The notes beneath the pieces were generated by a model. The model saw nothing but the letters and a program-made list of their open reading frames with translations, made no database searches and was not told the DNA's origin. A DNA stretch of 34,822 bases from an uncultured Actinomycetes bacterium (GTDB lineage Bacteria; Actinomycetota; Acidimicrobiia; Acidimicrobiales; RAAP-2). Location of the stretch: assembly GCA_903825765.1 (NCBI GenBank), contig CAIKBU010000068.1, forward strand, positions 1 through 34,822. The letters run 5' to 3'. A program made the position numbers and the translations under genes. Positions 3,769 through 11,966 of the stretch are shown piece by piece; the first letter of the stretch is position 1, and each line of letters opens with the position of its first letter.

Positions 3769-6700
3769 CTATCTCCAATCTCGTGAGGGCACCGTTGGAC
3801 CGAGAACCAGGGGCTCCACAAACTCCGCAGTCAACGACATGGTGCCCTGACCGCGCTGCAGCGACCCTCGAATCAACAGGGCCGGCGAGGAACGGGCCAC
3901 ACTCCCCCAGCGCGCCCATGCGCCCTTCGAGAAGACCACGTTCACGTGACCGGTCTCATCTTCGATATTCAAAAAGACCGCCCCCTTGGCCGTTTCGGGG
4001 TGTTGCCGATGGGTCACCACTCCCCCCACCGTCACGCGAGGGCTCTCCACGCTCGCCAGCGCGGCGGCGGCCACGACCCCCCGCTGGCGCAGTAGCGGGC
4101 GCAGTAGCGCCATTGCCGTGGCGTCGGGGGTAAGGCCCATGGCCCAGAGATCATCGGCTACCCGCTCGAGCGCCGTTGGTGGGGCGAGGACCGGTGCCGT
4201 AGCGCCAGTGACGACGCCCTCCAGGCGATCGGTCGTACTCTGCGCGGCCGCTCCCGCTACCCAGACCATCTCGCGTCGCTTCGTCGAGAAACAGTCGAGC
4301 GCCCCCGCCGCCGCCAGCGCCTCGAGGTGTTGCTGTTGACATCCCGCTCGACGCACGAGATCCTCACTATCGCGCCACGGCGCCCCCGCGACAATACGGA
4401 GTGCGAGTTCTCGACTAATACCCCGCACGGTGGTGAGACCGAGCCGCACGAACGGTGCACTACGGTCACCAGCCAAGGTGGCGTCGGCGTTAGACGTCTG
4501 GACGTTGGGCCGCTCCACCTCGACGCCGTGGCGCTGGGCGTCGGCCACGAGCGACTGCGGGGACCAGAAACCGAGGGGCTGGGCGTTGAGTAGTGACACC
4601 AGAAACGCCGCGGGGTAGTGATGCTTAATCCACGCCGAGCAGTAGACGAGGTGAGCAAACGATACCGAGTGGGATTCGGGGAAGCCAAAGTTAGCGAAGG
4701 CCGAGAGTGCGTCGAACAGCTGATCCGCCGCTTTGCCAGTAATGCCGTTGGCGGCCATACCGGCGTAGAAGCGACTCTTCAGTTTAAGCATGCGGATTTC
4801 GGAGCGCTTGGCGGCCATGGCCTGGCGAAGCTCGTCAGCCTCAGCCGGTGAGAACCCCGCCACCGCGACCGCCATCTCCATGAGTTGTTCCTGAAAGAGT
4901 GGCACGCCGAGAGTACGCGACAAGATTGGTTCGAGTCGTGGGTGCAGGTACGTAACTGGTTCATCGCCGTTGCGGCGGCGCAGGTAGGGATTCACGGCGT
5001 TGCCCTGAATGGGGCCAGGGCGAATGAGTGCTACCTCAATCACGAGGTCGTAAAAGCACCGTGGCTTCATGCGTGGCAGCGTCGCCATTTGCGCTCGCGA
5101 CTCCACTTGAAAGACCCCGACCGTGTCGGCTCGACACAAGAGGTCGTAGACGGCCGGTTCCTGTTCGAGCGCCCCGAGATCAAGGGTCACTCCGTGAAAC
5201 GCCGCCACCACGTCAACGGCTCGGTGAAGCGCTTCGAGCATGCCGAGGCCGAGCAGATCGAACTTAACGAGGCCAATAGCCGCACAGTCATCCTTATCCC
5301 ACTGGAGAACCGTCCGACCTGGCGTCCGACCCCACTCCACGGGACAGACCTCGAGTACGGGTCGGTCGCACAGCACCATACCGGCCGAGTGAATACCGAG
5401 GTGGCGTGGGCGGTGGAGTAGTTCATTGGCCATCGTCACCACCATCGCCGGGACCTCATCACTCGCCGCCGTCATCGTGGCGCGGTCCACGCCGTCACGA
5501 ATCTGGTTGGCCTCCGCCTCGGAATATCCGAAGGCCCGAGCGACGTCGCGTAGTGCTGACCGTGGTCTATACGTGATGACGGCTGCCACCTGGGCCGCGT
5601 GGTGGCGACCGTAGCGTTCGTAGACGTACTGAATAACTTCCTCCCGGCGACCCGACTCGATATCGACGTCAATATCGGGGGGACCGTCTCGCGCCGGTGA
5701 GAGAAATCGCTCGAAGAAGAGATTTAGTTTTACCGCGTCGGCATTCGTGATCCCGAGTGAGTAACACACTGCCGAGTTTGCCGCCGAGCCCCGACCCTGG
5801 CTAAAGATGTTTGACCGACGACAGAACTCAGTGATGTCCCAGACGGTGAGAAAGTAGCCCGCGAAGCCAAGTTGCTCAATAACGGCGAGCTCGTGATCAA
5901 TCTGACGCCAGGCGCCCGGCACTCGCTCGTTCTCGCGCGTGCCGTAGCGCTGGGTGGCCCCGTCGTCAACGAGTTCTCGCAAGTAGGCCTGCTCGCTCAT
6001 GCCCGAGGGCGTGGCGAAGCGGGGCAACTGTGGGGCAACCAGCCGTAGGTCAAAGGCCAACTCGGCCGCGAGATCACCAGCCCGGTCCACGACCCCGGGC
6101 CAGCGTGCGAAGCGACGACGTTGTTCAGCATCACTGCGCAAATGAGCCAGCGGTGAGGCATTGAGCCAGCCCTGCATATCGTCGAGCGCTTGGCGTGAAC
6201 GAATCGCGGCGAGCACATTGGCCCGAGGGAACGCGTCTGGTGTGGCGTAATGCACATTGCCCGTTGCCACCACGTCAACTCCGTGACGCAGGGCGATACC
6301 GACAAGTACGTCGTTGCGTGCGACGTCGTCAATCTGACCGTGGTCCCATATCTCGACCGCGAGCGCGTCACGGCCGAATCGTTCAATAAGGGCATGCATC
6401 GCCCGCTCGGCCGCTCGAGGTCCCTCGGACTCCAGCGCCCTCGTCAGTGGCCCTTTGCGACAGCCGGTGAGGACGACGACGTCACGCAGTGCACTCGCGA
6501 CCTCGTCGTACGCGAACACGGGTGCGCCCTTCTCACCTCGGATGAGGTGGGCCTCACCGAGCAGCGTTGAGAGACGGCGATACCCCTCGGGAGAGCGGGC
6601 CAAAAAGACCAAGTGCTCCCCCGTTGGATCTGGAACCCCCACGCGATCATCAACTGCGCCAAACGTCAGTTCGGTGCCAAAAATAGTGGCGAGACCCAGT

Positions 6701-6870
6701 GCCCGCGCCGCCTCGGCGAAGCGGACAACACCGTAGAAGCCGCTGTGATCAGTCAGCGCCAGGGCACCAAGACCGAGTCGTACCGCCTCGGCGACGAGCT
6801 CCTCAGGGTCGCTCGCTCCGTCGAGAAAGCTAAAGCCCGAATGAGCGTGAAGTTCACCGTAGAGCGCCAT
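3769..6870 (-). CDS. dnaE2: Error-prone DNA polymerase DnaE2 (ImuC)
   Basis: This C-family polymerase of 1033 residues acts in SOS translesion synthesis with ImuA' and ImuB. The N-terminal PHP domain opens with ELHAHSGFSFLDGAS (His8, His10) and ALTDHSGFYG. The palm contains GRGSAANS at 359-366 and PPDIDVDIES with catalytic Asp401 and Asp403; a third acidic residue lies in VKFDLLGLG. A helix-hairpin-helix region follows, then a C-terminal OB fold around VTVGGVVTHRQHPE. Length fits DnaE2 (about 1030-1100), shorter than replicative DnaE1. The ATG at 6870 is chosen because it overlaps the imuB stop as TAATG and begins the conserved MALYGELHAHS; the frame is open 9 codons further. Expression is presumably driven by the LexA-controlled promoter upstream of imuA'. 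Confidence 0.95.
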   Translation of the reverse strand: MALYGELHAHSGFSFLDGASDPEELVAEAVRLGLGALALTDHSGFYGVVRFAEAARALGLATIFGTELTFGAVDDRVGVPDPTGEHLVFLARSPEGYRRLSTLLGEAHLIRGEKGAPVFAYDEVASALRDVVVLTGCRKGPLTRALESEGPRAAERAMHALIERFGRDALAVEIWDHGQIDDVARNDVLVGIALRHGVDVVATGNVHYATPDAFPRANVLAAIRSRQALDDMQGWLNASPLAHLRSDAEQRRRFARWPGVVDRAGDLAAELAFDLRLVAPQLPRFATPSGMSEQAYLRELVDDGATQRYGTRENERVPGAWRQIDHELAVIEQLGFAGYFLTVWDITEFCRRSNIFSQGRGSAANSAVCYSLGITNADAVKLNLFFERFLSPARDGPPDIDVDIESGRREEVIQYVYERYGRHHAAQVAAVITYRPRSALRDVARAFGYSEAEANQIRDGVDRATMTAASDEVPAMVVTMANELLHRPRHLGIHSAGMVLCDRPVLEVCPVEWGRTPGRTVLQWDKDDCAAIGLVKFDLLGLGMLEALHRAVDVVAAFHGVTLDLGALEQEPAVYDLLCRADTVGVFQVESRAQMATLPRMKPRCFYDLVIEVALIRPGPIQGNAVNPYLRRRNGDEPVTYLHPRLEPILSRTLGVPLFQEQLMEMAVAVAGFSPAEADELRQAMAAKRSEIRMLKLKSRFYAGMAANGITGKAADQLFDALSAFANFGFPESHSVSFAHLVYCSAWIKHHYPAAFLVSLLNAQPLGFWSPQSLVADAQRHGVEVERPNVQTSNADATLAGDRSAPFVRLGLTTVRGISRELALRIVAGAPWRDSEDLVRRAGCQQQHLEALAAAGALDCFSTKRREMVWVAGAAAQSTTDRLEGVVTGATAPVLAPPTALERVADDLWAMGLTPDATAMALLRPLLRQRGVVAAAALASVESPRVTVGGVVTHRQHPETAKGAVFLNIEDETGHVNVVFSKGAWARWGSVARSSPALLIRGSLQRGQGTMSLTAEFVEPLVLGPTVPSRDWR

Positions 6871-7949
6871 TAGTCGTACATCCCCGTGAGCCACCACTGG
6901 CCACCTTCGGTCGTTACTAACATCGCCTCACCGGTCTCGAGGAGGACCTGCGCGTGCGCCCGCCGTCGTGGCGCCGTCCACCATTGCTCAACGAGTAGCC
7001 AGGGACCGGCACACCACGTGATGCGCCGGCGTACTCCGCGCTCGAGGAGCAGTACCGACGGTGTTCCCGTCATGGCGCCGCGCACGCCAAGCCGCACCGG
7101 CGCGTCATGTTCGTCAAGGACCTCCACCCGTACTGGGCATCGAAACGACGTGGTCGGGGCCGGCGAGCCGAGCTGACCCGGCCAGGGCGCATTGTCACGA
7201 GCGGGTGGGCGGGGGGCACCCCAGGGCACGAGTGTCGCTCGATCATCGGGACTGCGACCACCGCGAACGTCGGCCACGAGGACACCATCAACACCGAGTC
7301 GGTGTCGGAGTCGATGGGCAGCGGCCTGGGCACGGTCATCGCTCGCACTGCGCTGTCCGAAGAATCCCATCTGTTCTTCCGCTCGCACATCCTCACCGCG
7401 CGCAGTGCGTAGTCGCGTCAACAGTTGTTTGTCTCGCTGACTAGGGAGTTCATGTAACTCACCGCGGGCTACCCGATGCAGCACCTGCACGGTACGACTA
7501 AAACGCTCCGCCACGCGGGCCGGTGCGAGCTCAGCGAACTCCCCCACCGTCACGAGACCGAGGCGCCGCGCGGTCATCGTTAGCTCCTTGTGGCCGAGTG
7601 TTGCGAGGGGCTGCACACGCCGAAAGAGTGACGTACCGCCAGCGGGAACAACAGTCCGCTGGCGAGCGGCGAGTTCGGCACAGAACAGTCCCTCCGCTAC
7701 GCCAAGATTGACCTCGTGCCCAGTGACGTCGCGAACGGCGGCGGCCACCGCCGCCATCACCGCTTCATCGCCGCCAAAAAAACGACTCGGGCCGCGCATT
7801 GGCATTGTGATGAGTCCGAGGCGTACCGGCTCCACAAAGGGGCAGACGCTCACAAGGGCGTCCAGAACCGCAACCAGTGATCGCAGCGAGGAACCGTCGG
7901 CTTTTTCAACGGCGAGTTCCTCAATCCAGAGAGCGAGAAGTCGCTCCAC
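6870..7949 (-). CDS. imuB: ImuB, catalytically dead Y-family polymerase homologue, unusually short
   Basis: This is the adaptor that links DnaE2 and ImuA' to the beta clamp. It has 359 residues; ImuB proteins are usually near 500. The start MERLLALWIEEL corresponds to the first palm strand, and GLITMPMRGPSRFFGGDEAV (about 45-64) is the conserved segment after the fingers. The roughly 50-70 residues normally between them are absent. The thumb (GLVTVGEFAELAP) and little-finger regions are present. QMGFFG at 193-198 fits a clamp-binding motif of the QLxLF type. The C-terminus has the Trp-rich EQWWTAPRRR and GGQWWLTGMYD tail seen in actinobacterial ImuB. The GTG start directly follows the imuA' TAA stop in the same frame; the stop overlaps dnaE2 as TAATG. 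Confidence 0.88.
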   Translation of the reverse strand: MERLLALWIEELAVEKADGSSLRSLVAVLDALVSVCPFVEPVRLGLITMPMRGPSRFFGGDEAVMAAVAAAVRDVTGHEVNLGVAEGLFCAELAARQRTVVPAGGTSLFRRVQPLATLGHKELTMTARRLGLVTVGEFAELAPARVAERFSRTVQVLHRVARGELHELPSQRDKQLLTRLRTARGEDVRAEEQMGFFGQRSASDDRAQAAAHRLRHRLGVDGVLVADVRGGRSPDDRATLVPWGAPRPPARDNAPWPGQLGSPAPTTSFRCPVRVEVLDEHDAPVRLGVRGAMTGTPSVLLLERGVRRRITWCAGPWLLVEQWWTAPRRRAHAQVLLETGEAMLVTTEGGQWWLTGMYD

Positions 7950-8609
7950 TTAACTCGCGACCGCCCGTCCACGCCGGTCCGGCACAACGACGACGCGCTC
8001 GGCGCCACGACCGGCAGCACCACGACCACCCACGCGCACGGTGAGTGAACGTGACTCGAGTCGTGACGAAGCCACCCACTGTGTATTGGTCACATCGAGA
8101 GAAACCTCAACGGGCAGTGGCCACGGCGCTGATGGCTCAGTCAAAGCGATGAGAACCGTGCCGCGCTCACGAACACGGTCCATCAACTTTCGCGCCGCCG
8201 CGTGAGCCGGTCGTGAGGGGGGTCGCACAATCAGTAGATCGACACCGTCGACTAAATCAGCCGCCGACTCTGCCCAGGCGCCACGGGGGCGGGGTACGAA
8301 GAGGACGCGACGGAGGTCCAGGCCGAGATCGGCAATGGCCACGACACCGGGATCATCGACGCCTACGACCGCGGACCAGTGACCCTTGGCACTGGCCTCG
8401 CTGAGCAAACTCAGGGCCACGCTAACCCCACCCCACCCCGCGGGTGACTGTACGCCGACCGTAGCCCCACGACGGAGACCGCCGTCGGGCAGAAGACTCC
8501 GCCAAGGCTCGCCCACGGGCAATGTCTTGGTTTTCGCGAGGGTGACGGGGCGGATAGCGGCACGAATATCATCCGAAAGGGCAGGTCGTTTAGTAGAAAA
8601 AGCGAACAT
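7950..8609 (-). CDS. imuA: ImuA'-type RecA-like mutasome accessory protein
   Basis: This 219-residue protein is the first gene of the mutasome operon. The region GATVGVQSPAGWGGVSVALSL sits where RecA has its P-loop, but the Walker A Lys-Ser/Thr is replaced (GWGGVS), so ATP binding looks lost. LLIVRPP resembles a degenerate Walker B strand. In mycobacteria the equivalent protein pairs with ImuB and is needed for damage-induced mutagenesis; a RecA-fold relation is known for ImuA proteins. The ATG at 8609 lies inside the LexA palindrome, just where the predicted promoter would start transcription, so a leaderless mRNA is likely. An upstream in-frame start at 8648 and downstream GTG/TTG codons near LPVGEPW are alternatives. 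The identity rests largely on operon position. Confidence 0.8.
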   Translation of the reverse strand: MFAFSTKRPALSDDIRAAIRPVTLAKTKTLPVGEPWRSLLPDGGLRRGATVGVQSPAGWGGVSVALSLLSEASAKGHWSAVVGVDDPGVVAIADLGLDLRRVLFVPRPRGAWAESAADLVDGVDLLIVRPPSRPAHAAARKLMDRVRERGTVLIALTEPSAPWPLPVEVSLDVTNTQWVASSRLESRSLTVRVGGRGAAGRGAERVVVVPDRRGRAVAS

Positions 8610-8618
8610 ATGTTCGCT
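8601..8618. promoter_or_regulatory. LexA (SOS) box, perfect 18-bp palindrome
   Basis: The sequence AGCGAACATATGTTCGCT is its own reverse complement. Its core GAAC-ATAT-GTTC matches the actinobacterial/mycobacterial LexA consensus TCGAAC-N4-GTTCGA, differing only in the outermost base pair of the 14-bp core. It lies between imuA' and the divergent SRAP gene, so one operator could repress both. The imuA' ATG (8609-8607) is inside it. Confidence 0.92.
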
Positions 8619-8648
8619 AGAGTACACACTCCCCGTGACGTACGACAA
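8619..8648 (-). promoter_or_regulatory. Candidate imuA'-imuB-dnaE2 promoter
   Basis: On the minus strand a TTGTCG -35-like element (8648-8643) and a TACTCT -10-like element (8624-8619, pattern TANNNT) are separated by 18 bases. The -10 abuts the LexA box, so the predicted transcription start falls at about 8613-8609, at or within a few bases of the ATG. LexA bound there would block both the start site and the translation start region. The elements are read by eye. Confidence 0.55.
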
Positions 8649-8719: not shown

Positions 8720-9430
8720 GTGTGCGGTCGCGTAACACTCTTTAGCCCACCGAGTCGCCTCGCTCGCTTTCTGGACGCCACATTGGCCGCGGGACTCGAT
8801 CCCCAGGGCCACCCCAGCTGGAATATTGGCCCCCAGCGCCAGCTCTTTGGCCTCACCATGGTCGATGGGCGGCGCGTGCTTGATGGCTATCAGTGGGGGC
8901 TTATCCCTAGTTGGGCCACCAGTCCGGCTATCGCCAATAGCTGCATCAATGCGCGAGGCGAAACCGTCGCCGAGAAACCCTCATTTCGTGAGGCCTTTCG
9001 CACTCGCCCGTGCGTGTTGCCCGTTGACGGCTTTTACGAATGGGCTATCCAGGGTCGTCATCGTCAGCCCCACTATTTCACCCGGCGAGACGGTAACCCC
9101 GCTCTCTTCGCGGGGCTCTACGAGTATTGGCGAGACCCCACGTTGCCCATTGACGCACCACTACGACAAACCTGCACGGTATTAACGACCGAACCGAGTG
9201 ACGATATCGACGGTGTGCACGACCGCATGCCGGTCATCCTTGATCCGCTCGACGTGGCCGAATGGCTGCGCATCGATGAAAAGGGTGCTGGCGTGCGCCA
9301 AGAGCTCATTCGTCCAGCACCGCTAGGAACGCTCACGCACCTGGCGGTAAATCCCGCAGTGGGCTCAGTGCGCAATGACGGGCCCGAGATGATCGAGCCC
9401 GCCACTGCGCGTACTGAACGACTCTTCTAA
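8720..9430 (+). CDS. SOS-response-associated (SRAP/HMCES/YedK-type) abasic-site DNA-protein crosslinking protein
   Basis: Members of this family covalently trap abasic sites in single-stranded DNA through the N-terminal Cys left after Met removal. The GTG at 8720 is chosen because it puts Cys at position 2 (MCGRVTLF) and follows GGAGG by 4 bases; the frame is open upstream to 8663, but that would bury the essential Cys. Other active-site residues are visible: Asn77 in CINARGET, Glu107 in DGFYEW, and His167 in GVHDRMPVIL. Length is 236 residues, normal for the family. It is divergent from the imuA'-imuB-dnaE2 operon across a LexA box. Its stop is directly adjacent to the convergent collagen-like gene's stop. 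Confidence 0.95.
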   Translation: MCGRVTLFSPPSRLARFLDATLAAGLDPQGHPSWNIGPQRQLFGLTMVDGRRVLDGYQWGLIPSWATSPAIANSCINARGETVAEKPSFREAFRTRPCVLPVDGFYEWAIQGRHRQPHYFTRRDGNPALFAGLYEYWRDPTLPIDAPLRQTCTVLTTEPSDDIDGVHDRMPVILDPLDVAEWLRIDEKGAGVRQELIRPAPLGTLTHLAVNPAVGSVRNDGPEMIEPATARTERLF

Positions 9431-11410
9431 CTACGCAGCAGGATTCGGACGAACCGCGACACTGTCGAGATTCAAGTACTGCGTTTCAATGGGAATCACC
9501 TTGAAATTCAAGATCAGCTGACTGTCGTTGGCGGGTGAACCCAGATAGACGTACTCCGGCAACGCCAGTGTTGTGCCATCGTTCATCGTGAAGATGCCGT
9601 AGGCCAACGTGTAGCTCGTGAGATTCACCGTTTCGTTTATTGGTGGCAGTGTCTCCGTCGTGGTGTACAGCGTTGGCATTGGCGCAACCGTCGTGGTCGT
9701 AACGGCGCCCGATGCGCCACTGCTTCCACTCGCTCCAGATGCACCGGTCGCACCGGTAGATCCAGCCGCCGTGGCCGAGCGCTCGAGGGAACTCGGCGAG
9801 GCTGAGGAGAAGTCGTAGGCGAGAATCGGCTGGACAGCTGACGTTGGCAAGACAAGGGGTTGGGGGGTTGGCGTTGTAACACCTGTACTACCCGAGTCAC
9901 CCGTAGCTCCCGAAGGCCCAGTCGCACCCGTGGTTCCGGTAGCGCCAGAGGGCGAGCCGAAGCCGTACGGCGTGGCTACCGGGCCAGTGACACCGGTCGC
10001 ACCAGACGCACCTGTTCCACCGAAAGAGCCACGGCAATCAATACACATTGGGCCCGTCACGCCGCTGGGGCCCGTCACGCCGGATGCACCCGAAGGAAGT
10101 GGGTACGGGAGAAAAACGGGACCAGGGGAACATACGAAATCAGAGATCATGGGACACACCACAGGGGTAGGGCCCGTCGAGCCAGTTATCCCAGTAATGC
10201 CCATCGGCCCAGTGACACCAGTGGCGCCGGTCGGTCCAGTGACACCAGTGGCGCCCGTCGATCCAGTAGCGCCGGAGGTGCCGGTCGCCGTCACATCGAG
10301 CGCACTGAAGGTGGTCGTAGCAACTGAACGCATGGCGAGGTGTGGCATCTTGACCGATCCCGAGGACGACGGCGTAACCATCGAGGAGCCGAGGGCCGGA
10401 GCACCCATGGCGGGAGCTGGTTGTGGGGTTGCCACGCCGTGGTCCATGACAGCGCCACCGCTGTACGCCTGGTTCACAATGGCCATCTGTGCGGTGATCT
10501 CACTCGTCGCACTCGCTGGCGACTGCAGCGGGTACGTGTCGACAACCGTGGCGGTGAAGGCGACACCGTTCGCCGAGAGAAGTTCGCCCTGCGCGTTGAA
10601 GGTGAAACTATCCTCGAGACTCGTTGGTGCGCCGTTGAGATCAACAGGGACCGAAATCGAGGTGTCAGGGGCACCCGCCGATGACGTCACCGTCGCGGCA
10701 CCGAAGTTCAACCCCGGACTCGTCGCGTTGGCGAGGGCAACTGCGTTATTGATGAACGACGCTGATGCGGCGGGGTCGTTGGCACCGGTCGTGCCGGTCG
10801 CACCGGTCGTACTAGCGAGGGGCGAGACGTTGGTATCGTCCCGCGAAACGCCCCACGCGGCGTAACCGCTGTTCGAGGTGATCTCACCGCTGTAGCTCAC
10901 GCCATTCGTTGTTGGCCCTTGCGACGTGACGACGCCGGGGGTTGTCGAAGTAGTGGGTGTACCAATGGCCACGTTTAAGGCTTGACCAACCGACTGCAGC
11001 GTTGCCACCAGATCAGTTGGTGCGCTCAGCGAGTAGACAGGTGCCGAGGACGTAGCCGACGAAAGTGCGTCAAGACCAGTGAAGGTGTAGTTCGTCGGGT
11101 GAATTGGGGCTTCTACTCCCGCAAACTTCATCGCTGATGAAGTTTGTGCGTGACCAGTAGCGGCTGCGGCGAAATTCAGCACCGGCAGTTGCGAGCCCAG
11201 ACCACCGAGTGCGGTTACTGCGCCAGTCATGAGCACGGCGACGGCACCCACCGAGGCGGCGACGCGCAGTTGCAATGTTCGCCACAAGGCACGTGAGGCC
11301 TCGTTGCGAGTGGCCATCGTCGCGCCGTACAGGTGCTGGAATGAAGCGGCGTTGTACGTGGACGATGCCACGGGATTCGCGTCGCTGAGTCGTTCTTCAA
11401 TGGACTTCAT
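9431..11410 (-). CDS. Single-pass membrane protein with collagen-like Gly-X-Thr blocks, downstream of an ECF sigma factor
   Basis: This 659-residue protein has a short N-terminal part (about 1-46, beginning [14 protein letters not shown]), one membrane segment (about 48-72, [20 protein letters not shown]), and a long external part. Collagen-like Gly-X-Y runs rich in TGxTGA occur at about 201-210, 376-415, 440-454, 464-477, 488-511 and 550-569, separated by Pro/Ser/Thr linkers; a Cys cluster lies near 419-459. The C-terminal 80 residues ([20 protein letters not shown] onward) are not repetitive. AAGGAGG precedes the ATG at 11410. Position 49 bases after the sigma-factor gene, plus the cytoplasm-membrane-outside layout, suggest an anti-sigma or sensor role. 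No HxxxCxxC zinc motif is present in the N-terminal region, so a classical ZAS domain is not supported. Function is inferred only. Confidence 0.75.
10140..10290 (-). repeat. Short tandem repeats encoding collagen-like triplets
   Basis: A 20-base unit (CCAGTGACACCAGTGGCGCC) occurs identically at 10209-10228 and 10236-10255, a 27-base period equal to nine codons or three collagen triplets. Degenerate copies flank it, and similar GGxCCxGT units recur between about 9700 and 10290. Such runs can expand or contract by slippage, so the number of triplets may vary between strains. Confidence 0.8.
11122..11146. repeat. Perfect 11-bp inverted repeat inside the collagen-like gene
   Basis: CAAACTTCATC at 11122-11132 and GATGAAGTTTG at 11136-11146 are exact reverse complements with a 3-base loop, inside codons for residues about 88-97, just outside the membrane segment. 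No T run follows on either strand, so it is not a typical intrinsic terminator. Confidence 0.7.
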
Positions 11411-11459: not shown

Positions 11460-11966
11460 TCACGAAACTTCGACCGTCTCGATGTGACGACGAAAACGCT
11501 CCTGCGCTCGTGACAGTCGCACCGCGGCCGCGTTCTCACTCACCCCAAGGACAGTGGCGATAGCACCGGCGGAAAGCCCATCCCAAAAGTGAAGCATGAT
11601 GATCTCTCGGTCATCGTCACTCAGTGCGAGCAGGGCGCTCTTGACTCCCTCGTCACCAATGACTGCGTCTTCGGCCGATGCGGTGGTGCCCGACGAATGA
11701 AGTTTTGCGGCGGTAATGGCCGCGTTGGTGGACTTGCGCACGGCATTACGACGAACATTGCGAGCGACACCAATGGACCAGGGGATCGCCCCGTCGACGG
11801 GCACGTCATCTAACCGTCGCCACAGCACCAAGAGCACTTCGGCAACAATGTCGTCGAGGTCCGCCTTGGCCAAGGGGTATTGACGGCGCGCCACGTAGGC
11901 GGCGACGGCCGGCGTCACCTCATCGGCGAGTTGGCGAAATCGCCTTTGTCGTTCTGCTTTCACCAC
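11460..11966 (-). CDS. ECF-type RNA polymerase sigma factor
   Basis: This 168-residue protein contains the two essential ECF regions. Region 2 spans about 20-75 (YPLAKADLDDIVAEVLLVLWRRL, then PWSIGVARNVRRNAVRK). Region 4 spans about 108-160 (ALLALSDDDREIIMLHFWDGLSAGAIATVLGVSENAAAVRLSRA), with a clear helix-turn-helix. The start is the first of two consecutive GTG codons, with AGGA 5 bases upstream. It is followed after 49 bases by the membrane protein with collagen-like blocks, the usual sigma/anti-sigma order. ECF factors often transcribe their own operon; upstream, two CTGAGAAA copies on the minus strand (12042-12020) and a GTAAGAA stretch are visible, but I cannot assign a promoter. Confidence 0.9.
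   Translation of the reverse strand: MVKAERQRRFRQLADEVTPAVAAYVARRQYPLAKADLDDIVAEVLLVLWRRLDDVPVDGAIPWSIGVARNVRRNAVRKSTNAAITAAKLHSSGTTASAEDAVIGDEGVKSALLALSDDDREIIMLHFWDGLSAGAIATVLGVSENAAAVRLSRAQERFRRHIETVEVS

Follow-up and report, generated by a model that had tools for sequence, protein, structure and literature searches.

The start codon of imuA', the first gene of an operon with an imuB-like gene and dnaE2, lies at the centre of the operon's predicted LexA operator (SOS box). In the window, by which we mean the whole 34,822-nucleotide stretch of DNA that was analysed, an 18-bp perfect palindrome, AGCGAACATATGTTCGCT, occupies positions 8601–8618 and contains, as read from the sequence, the actinobacterial SOS motif CGAACN4GTTCG. 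The imuA' ATG (8609–8607, minus strand) is at the centre of this palindrome, and a −10 hexamer, TACTCT (8624–8619, minus strand), which conforms to TANNNT, directly abuts it. An earlier, sequence-only reading had described the palindrome as the actinobacterial LexA box, had put the ATG within it and had placed the −10 next to it; all three descriptions hold, and the observation at imuA' is confirmed. We consider it highly likely that the site is a leaderless or near-leaderless (0–2 nt) SOS promoter, in which the LexA operator would lie both over the point where transcription begins and over the imuA' start codon. The anatomy of the site, its conservation, its codon bias, a parallel at ruvC and a contrast with lexA are direct observations, and with them the interpretation as a leaderless SOS promoter appears well supported.

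A −35-like hexamer, TTGTCG (8648–8643, minus strand), stands 18 bp upstream of the −10. This −35 is weak, and a generic sigma-70 consensus scan scored no promoter in the region upstream of imuA'. The distance from the −10 to the ATG is 9 nt, and inspection of the window revealed no purine-rich Shine-Dalgarno sequence between the two. The gene fits the description of a leaderless one, with TANNNT about 6–9 nt before the start (here 9 nt) and no Shine-Dalgarno sequence. The exact motif CGAACN4GTTCG occurs at a single site in the whole window, the imuA' box. When up to two mismatches are allowed, 28 sites are found against 29.6 expected by chance, and thus only the exact match is informative.

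The imuA' coding sequence (7950–8609, minus strand; 219 residues plus stop) matches NCBIfam NF058630 at 113.5 bits (cut-off 65 bits), the family of ImuA', the DnaE2-dependent mutagenesis accessory factor, and its product aligns with those of congeners from residue 1. The second gene of the operon is the imuB-like one (6870–7949, minus strand), putatively for an inactive Y-family polymerase, and the third is dnaE2, for an error-prone DNA polymerase (3769–6897, minus strand; NF004225, 1319 bits), a gene order that is in keeping with ImuA'. The putative imuB-like identity is based on the location between imuA' and dnaE2 and on weak, sub-threshold Pol IV matches; neither ImuA' nor the ImuB-like protein had a Pfam match at E 0.1. 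A SRAP (YedK/HMCES-type) gene with a GGAGG Shine-Dalgarno sequence runs divergently (8720–9430, plus strand; PF02586, 201 bits). Both SRAP and imuA' are present in 34 genus genomes, the window's own included, and in 28 of these they are divergent and less than 250 nt apart; in the remaining six they are on separate contigs (three) or 1–4 kb apart (three). This divergent neighbourhood suggests that one operator could serve two SOS units, the imuA' operon and SRAP. No promoter in the SRAP direction was established at this operator, and a SRAP promoter inside the LexA box itself was among the candidates that were dropped as not established. Past SRAP are a gene for a 659-residue protein with collagen-like repeats (9431–11410; PF01391, 36.8 bits) and, adjoining it, a sigma-70 region 4 gene (11460–11966).

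Matches to imuA' are present in 58 of 61 genomes close to the window (none in G015, G022 and G047). For the comparison of 5′ ends, the 34 genus loci whose 5′ end is complete, the window's own included, were combined with 79 of the best 80 loci (of 85) from the named collection of relatives. The resulting 113 rows comprise 80 distinct loci and 33 duplicates; L313, whose imuA' match runs from residue 47, and the truncated G002 were left out. The named ImuA' relatives are at most 78% identical, and the titles of their assemblies read Acidimicrobiaceae, Acidimicrobiales, Actinomycetes or uncultured actinobacterium or, in a few cases that are probably misnamed bins, Acidobacteria or otherwise; many titles mention palsa, bog or fen. 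The sequence-only reading had proposed aligning the locus in relatives, and in this alignment the ATG stays within the box, as GAACNNATGTTC, at all 80 distinct loci of the Acidimicrobiales clade; a locus from a different genus of the same family (L327) likewise has its ATG within the box. The box reads GAACATATGTTC in 61 loci, GAACGT in 14, GAACAA in four and GAACAC in one. TANNNT ends 8–10 nt before the ATG in 79 of the 80, the exception (L296) having Ns there, and changes in the −10 are confined to the N positions (TACTCT, TACTGT, TATTCT, TACAGT, TAGAGT, TACGAT and others). TTGGCG is the best −35-like hexamer in 38 of 66 aligned loci, CTGGCG in 12, TTGTCA in six and another in 10, at 17–18 bp from the −10. 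Column conservation was assessed on these 66, which had been chosen for a TANNNT spaced exactly 9 nt from the ATG, and the −10 T, A and T are invariant there because of this selection; the LexA box and the columns adjoining it are among the best conserved.

The conservation extends to the choice of codons. ImuA' begins with Met-Phe-Ala in 79 loci and with Met-Phe-Val in one. All 80 have TTC at codon 2, but where residue 4 is Phe it is encoded by TTT in 61 loci and by TTC in two (17 loci have another residue). The exclusive use of TTC at codon 2, set against a Phe4 that is mostly TTT, indicates that the operator fixes ImuA' codons, and the expectation of the earlier reading that the operator would constrain the first codons is supported. 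The half-site GTTCG supplies the G of the ATG and the following TTC-G, and hence the protein must begin with Met-Phe.

The start codon could nevertheless lie elsewhere. If the mRNA started upstream and translation began at GTG 8627 or TTG 8648, the in-box ATG would be an internal methionine and the box would lie in a leader or in a coding region. In the window this GTG and this TTG are each in frame, and some in-frame ATG, GTG or TTG is found within 120 nt upstream in 62 of the 80 loci, often a TTG at 39 nt or a GTG at 30 nt. However, TTG 8648 is the beginning of the −35-like hexamer, and the recurrent TTG at 39 nt belongs to that hexamer. An in-frame stop is visible within 120 nt upstream at 44 of the 80 loci; at least one alternative start lies between this stop and the in-box ATG in 32 of them, and in the other 12 there is no ATG, GTG or TTG in between, which argues against an upstream start. 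So does a −10 that varies solely at its N positions, and so does RNA folding. A transcript that includes the full palindrome folds with its AUG in a hairpin (−11 kcal/mol) and would hide it, whereas one that starts at 8609, 8611 or 8612 leaves the AUG free (−2.1 kcal/mol). We regard an upstream start as quite improbable, and GTG 8627 and TTG 8648 were both rejected as a conserved imuA' start on the 80-locus comparison. A box placed before the −10, with the start downstream, was also rejected for this genus, as inspection showed no −10 and no conserved start after the box.

The leaderless reading agrees with the habits of the genome. A sample of 316,896 bases with 251 long open reading frames has 811 in-frame candidate starts. 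TANNNT stands 6 nt ahead of 33 of them and 7 nt ahead of 15, compared to none of 567 out-of-frame controls at either distance; the background farther upstream is about four per distance. This peak at 6–7 nt indicates that leaderless genes are common in the genome. At 9 nt TANNNT is without excess (8 of 811 candidate starts versus 5 of 567 controls). The imuA' spacing of 9 nt (8–10 nt in relatives) exceeds the genome's modal 6–7 nt, and the imuA' mRNA may thus start 0–2 nt before the ATG. Judged from the spacing, an mRNA that begins AUAUG, 2 nt before the ATG, would be as likely as one that begins AUG. Mycobacterial data, in the part of the source at hand, suggest that initiation is best with RTG at +1 (PMC4633059). 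The prediction that the message begins at the ATG is supported to within about 2 nt: the conservation of TANNNT, the genomic peak at 6–7 nt and the folding back a leaderless message, and the 9-nt gap would allow for a start about 2 nt upstream of the ATG.

We infer LexA binding, SOS induction, the exact 5′ end and the mode of translation at imuA', and picture them as follows. A LexA dimer on 8601–8618, immediately past the −10, would keep RNA polymerase from melting the promoter or from escaping it. Upon DNA damage LexA would be cleaved, and RNA polymerase would begin the transcript on the ATG or very shortly ahead of it; the 5′-terminal AUG (or AUAUG) would be read without a Shine-Dalgarno sequence. 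The AUG would not be trapped in a hairpin, because only one half of the palindrome would be transcribed. The off-switch of a mutagenic DNA-repair operon in these actinobacteria would thus sit on the gene's own start codon, and one short element appears to set repressor binding, message start and protein start. If the mRNA begins at the imuA' ATG, the repressor operator and the translation start are the same base pairs, the regulatory site dictates protein sequence (the invariant Met-Phe, with TTC only), and the result is a compact DNA-damage gene that needs no leader.

The same design is seen at ruvC, which was found in 58 of the 61 genomes (G008, G022 and G037 had no match). For each ruvC, in-frame starts as far as 90 nt upstream were considered and the one with the best box was taken. 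Defined in this way, the start is at the centre of a perfect box in all 35 genus genomes (29 ATG, 6 GTG), and TANNNT stands exactly 7 nt before it in all 35. In other families of the order the ruvC start is in the box at 23 of 23 loci (11 ATG, 12 GTG; 15 boxes without mismatch and eight with one), with TANNNT 7–10 nt before the start in all 23. Of the 58 genes, 56 have TTC as their second codon. At two loci, L110 and L118, the in-box start leads a longer N-terminus before the RuvC motif. In the window's own genome, ruvC (L006:998–1507, contig C47) starts at the box centre and its protein begins MFVLGIDPG. Of 29 further loci scanned across the phylum, 14 have a simple RuvC motif, and 10 of these are outside the class. 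At six of these 10, TANNNT lies within 5 nt before a box, and in our own reading none of the 10 has an in-box start. The box centre is RTG in only one of them, L222, where the gene starts downstream. The start-in-box ruvC appears to belong to the class.

The lexA gene offers a contrast. Thirty lexA loci were examined, of 53 genomes with a match, and in all 30 genus loci TANNNT stands 2–3 nt before the box; the corresponding gap is 3 nt at imuA' in the window's relatives and 1 nt at ruvC. The centre of the lexA box is RTG in one of the 30 and TTG in three, the start codon is in the box in none of the 30, and in every one it follows the box by 12–19 nt with a Shine-Dalgarno-like sequence before it. 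The same abutment of −10 and box at lexA, without an in-box start, indicates that a box over the transcription start is shared, and that the in-box start is particular to imuA' and ruvC.

Beyond the family the arrangement at imuA' changes. The exact box is kept at 23 of 23 loci, but before the −10. The imuA' start is 6–9 nt after a −10-like hexamer in 22 of the 23 by a relaxed NANNNT test; only 12 of the 23 promoters pass the strict TANNNT test, and GATACT accounts for most of the difference. A TTGA or TTGC −35-like hexamer is located 4–6 nt before the box in 15 of the 23. From this geometry, imuA' outside the family looks leaderless as well. For the sequence-only reading, a conserved start codon elsewhere in relatives would have counted against it; there is none within the clade, but in other families of the order the start lies elsewhere, after both the −10 and the box, at 22 of 23 loci. 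By this comparison, the start-in-box arrangement at imuA' is lineage-specific. An RTG is at the box centre in 14 of the 23 outgroup boxes, and in five of these 14 it is in frame and open into ImuA'; an in-box start is conceivable at these five. One outgroup locus, L051, is without another start after the −10.

These outgroup boxes bear on the question of whether the start codon is a by-product. The operator might be placed over the transcription start for repression alone, with the ATG arising from a preference of the LexA motif for ATGTTC and with leaderless translation incidental rather than selected as a unit. The 14 RTG-centred outgroup boxes favour this view, the more so as most of them, judged by their frame or by a start that follows the −10, do not seem to use the RTG; an RTG in a LexA box is thus not remarkable alone. 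Yet the lexA boxes of the same genus have almost no RTG and no in-box start, imuA' and ruvC have an in-frame RTG in every locus examined, and the swaps between ATG and GTG at ruvC preserve start-codon function. We hold a by-product to be unlikely. The evidence for an in-box start, as the alignments have it, is conservation and frame, not a single coincidence.

In the genome as a whole (1.75 Mb in 129 contigs), the exact motif CGAACN4GTTCG is found at 14 sites, versus one for the reversed pattern. By their surroundings, four of the 14 are the boxes at lexA, recA, ruvC and imuA', and seven are inside other reading frames. The genome's LexA protein has both the DNA-binding and the S24 domains. 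The remaining three are of note in their own right. A pair of tandem LexA boxes (L009:249–286, contig C80) precedes a short Shine-Dalgarno-led gene (303–737, MAALELISLAPELTT...) whose one match, to LysM, is sub-threshold. At the third site (L001:869–898, contig C2), TATCGT follows a LexA box, and 6 nt after it comes the GTG of an FtsK/SpoIIIE translocase gene (Pfam FtsK_SpoIIIE, 126.9 bits); this leaderless geometry with the box before the −10 matches that of imuA' in other families.

We searched the phylum with the pattern TANNNTN{1,3}GAACNNRTGTTC, using the reversed pattern as control. By our own count it is found in 94 of 198 phylum-wide genomes (control, 21) and in 79 of 99 genomes of the order (control, 12). 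The loci that were read downstream are those returned by the search plus 40 hand-picked stretches, half of them from one genome. They contain 97 distinct sites with sufficient sequence. In the RTG frame 72 of these run on without a stop for 80 codons or more; 14 and 25 do so in the other frames, and 18 with the mirrored codon. For the search-returned loci alone (n = 60) the numbers are 40, versus 9 and 19 in the other frames and 15 for the mirrored codon. When ruvC, imuA' and the multi-copy genome are set aside, 22 of 42 are open in the RTG frame versus 7 and 11. Given this excess in the RTG frame, a start-in-box class seems real, but beyond ruvC and imuA' about half of the pattern sites may have no role as starts. 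A first control that took every RTGTTC of these loci (133 of 256 open) told little, as the loci are mostly coding, and it was replaced by the frame and mirror controls. Among 10 hand-picked start-in-box proteins, six have DUF222 (two of them also HNH), one has HNH just below the cut-off, two are UvrD helicases and one is mycothiol-dependent isomerase-like. G076, a genome of the same class, has 31 sites with TANNNT, LexA box and RTG. Of the 20 that were fetched (L374–L393), 19 lead similar MFD... frames (one of 99 codons) and one leads ruvC. One MFD... protein was scanned and has DUF222 and HNH. These frames are apparently a large SOS-controlled family of paralogues.

We lean towards the view that leaderless start-in-operator SOS genes recur across Actinomycetota, built from TANNNT, a LexA box, a central ATG or GTG and Met-Phe, and including DUF222/HNH (13E12-like) nucleases, UvrD-type helicases and some 20–30 paralogues in one genome of the same class. 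In the available portion of one report, the M. tuberculosis LexA motif is given as MKWMTCGAAMRYWTGTTCGA, and LexA is linked with 13E12 HNH genes, ruvABC and imuA/B-dnaE2 (PMC4181829); both the motif and these links fit the wider picture. If it is true, the strength of the operator, the starts of mRNA and of translation and the N-terminal residues could change only together, and the bound repressor would lie directly over the DNA of the start codon.

The wider set also bears on whether the palindrome is mainly an intrinsic terminator. The palindrome and the T run that follows it (8618–8591, minus strand) score as an intrinsic-terminator-like hairpin, and one could suppose that 8618–8601 followed by TTTTCTACTA chiefly terminates minus-strand read-through. 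The match itself favours this, as does the good conservation of the T run after the box at imuA'. However, that run includes the TTT of Phe4 and so has a coding role, the same box is found without a T run at ruvC and before the MFD... genes, and the stem is the LexA motif that is also present at lexA and recA. A terminator is, in our view, a highly improbable account of the element. If the mRNA does begin at the imuA' ATG, the simple rule TANNNT plus GAACNN-RTG-TTC could serve to find SOS genes and correct start codons in actinobacterial genomes, mutagenic polymerase and nuclease genes included.

Several published systems share parts of this design. In M. tuberculosis lexA, translation and transcription begin at the same base (PMC2897130). 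Like the predicted promoter of imuA' here, it is a LexA-regulated actinobacterial SOS promoter with coincident starts; unlike imuA', its start codon is not placed inside the SOS box in the accessible text of that report (PMC2897130). The lexA of the genus studied here looks leadered, with a Shine-Dalgarno-like sequence in 30 of 30 loci, in contrast to the leaderless lexA of M. tuberculosis (PMC2897130). Leaderless mRNAs that begin at the ATG, mapped by 5′-RACE, with a palindromic operator touching the promoter, are described for Rhodobacter acuR (PMC3017554) and Mesorhizobium nreAXY (PMC12724321). As far as the available parts of these reports go, their operators precede the ATG and are placed over the promoter or in the interval from −35 to −10, whereas that of imuA' lies over the start codon, and their repressors are of the TetR and CsoR/RcnR types, not LexA (PMC3017554, PMC12724321). 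Leaderless paaR2 is also published, and the sections seen do not place its start codon inside the operator (PMC8630535). In Streptomyces venezuelae, as is predicted here, ruvC, lexA, recA and dnaE2 are under LexA (PMC9380542). According to the portion consulted, their 14-bp boxes are 23–162 nt before the predicted starts (ruvC, −23) and so do not reach the start codon, unlike those of imuA' and ruvC here; an intragenic LexA site in dnaE2 is also reported (PMC9380542). The account of the imuA'-imuB-dnaE2 mutasome covers the same gene set and names SRAP among the neighbours of imuB/dnaE2 genes; the part at hand deals with neither promoters nor start codons (PMC3765255). We found no description of a LexA box that contains a start codon in the open-licence literature, in so far as its texts were available, which is weak evidence of absence. 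The parts of the imuA' promoter are of known kinds; what is new is that operator and start codon overlap in a fixed way, an arrangement that is conserved at two operons and apparently extends further.
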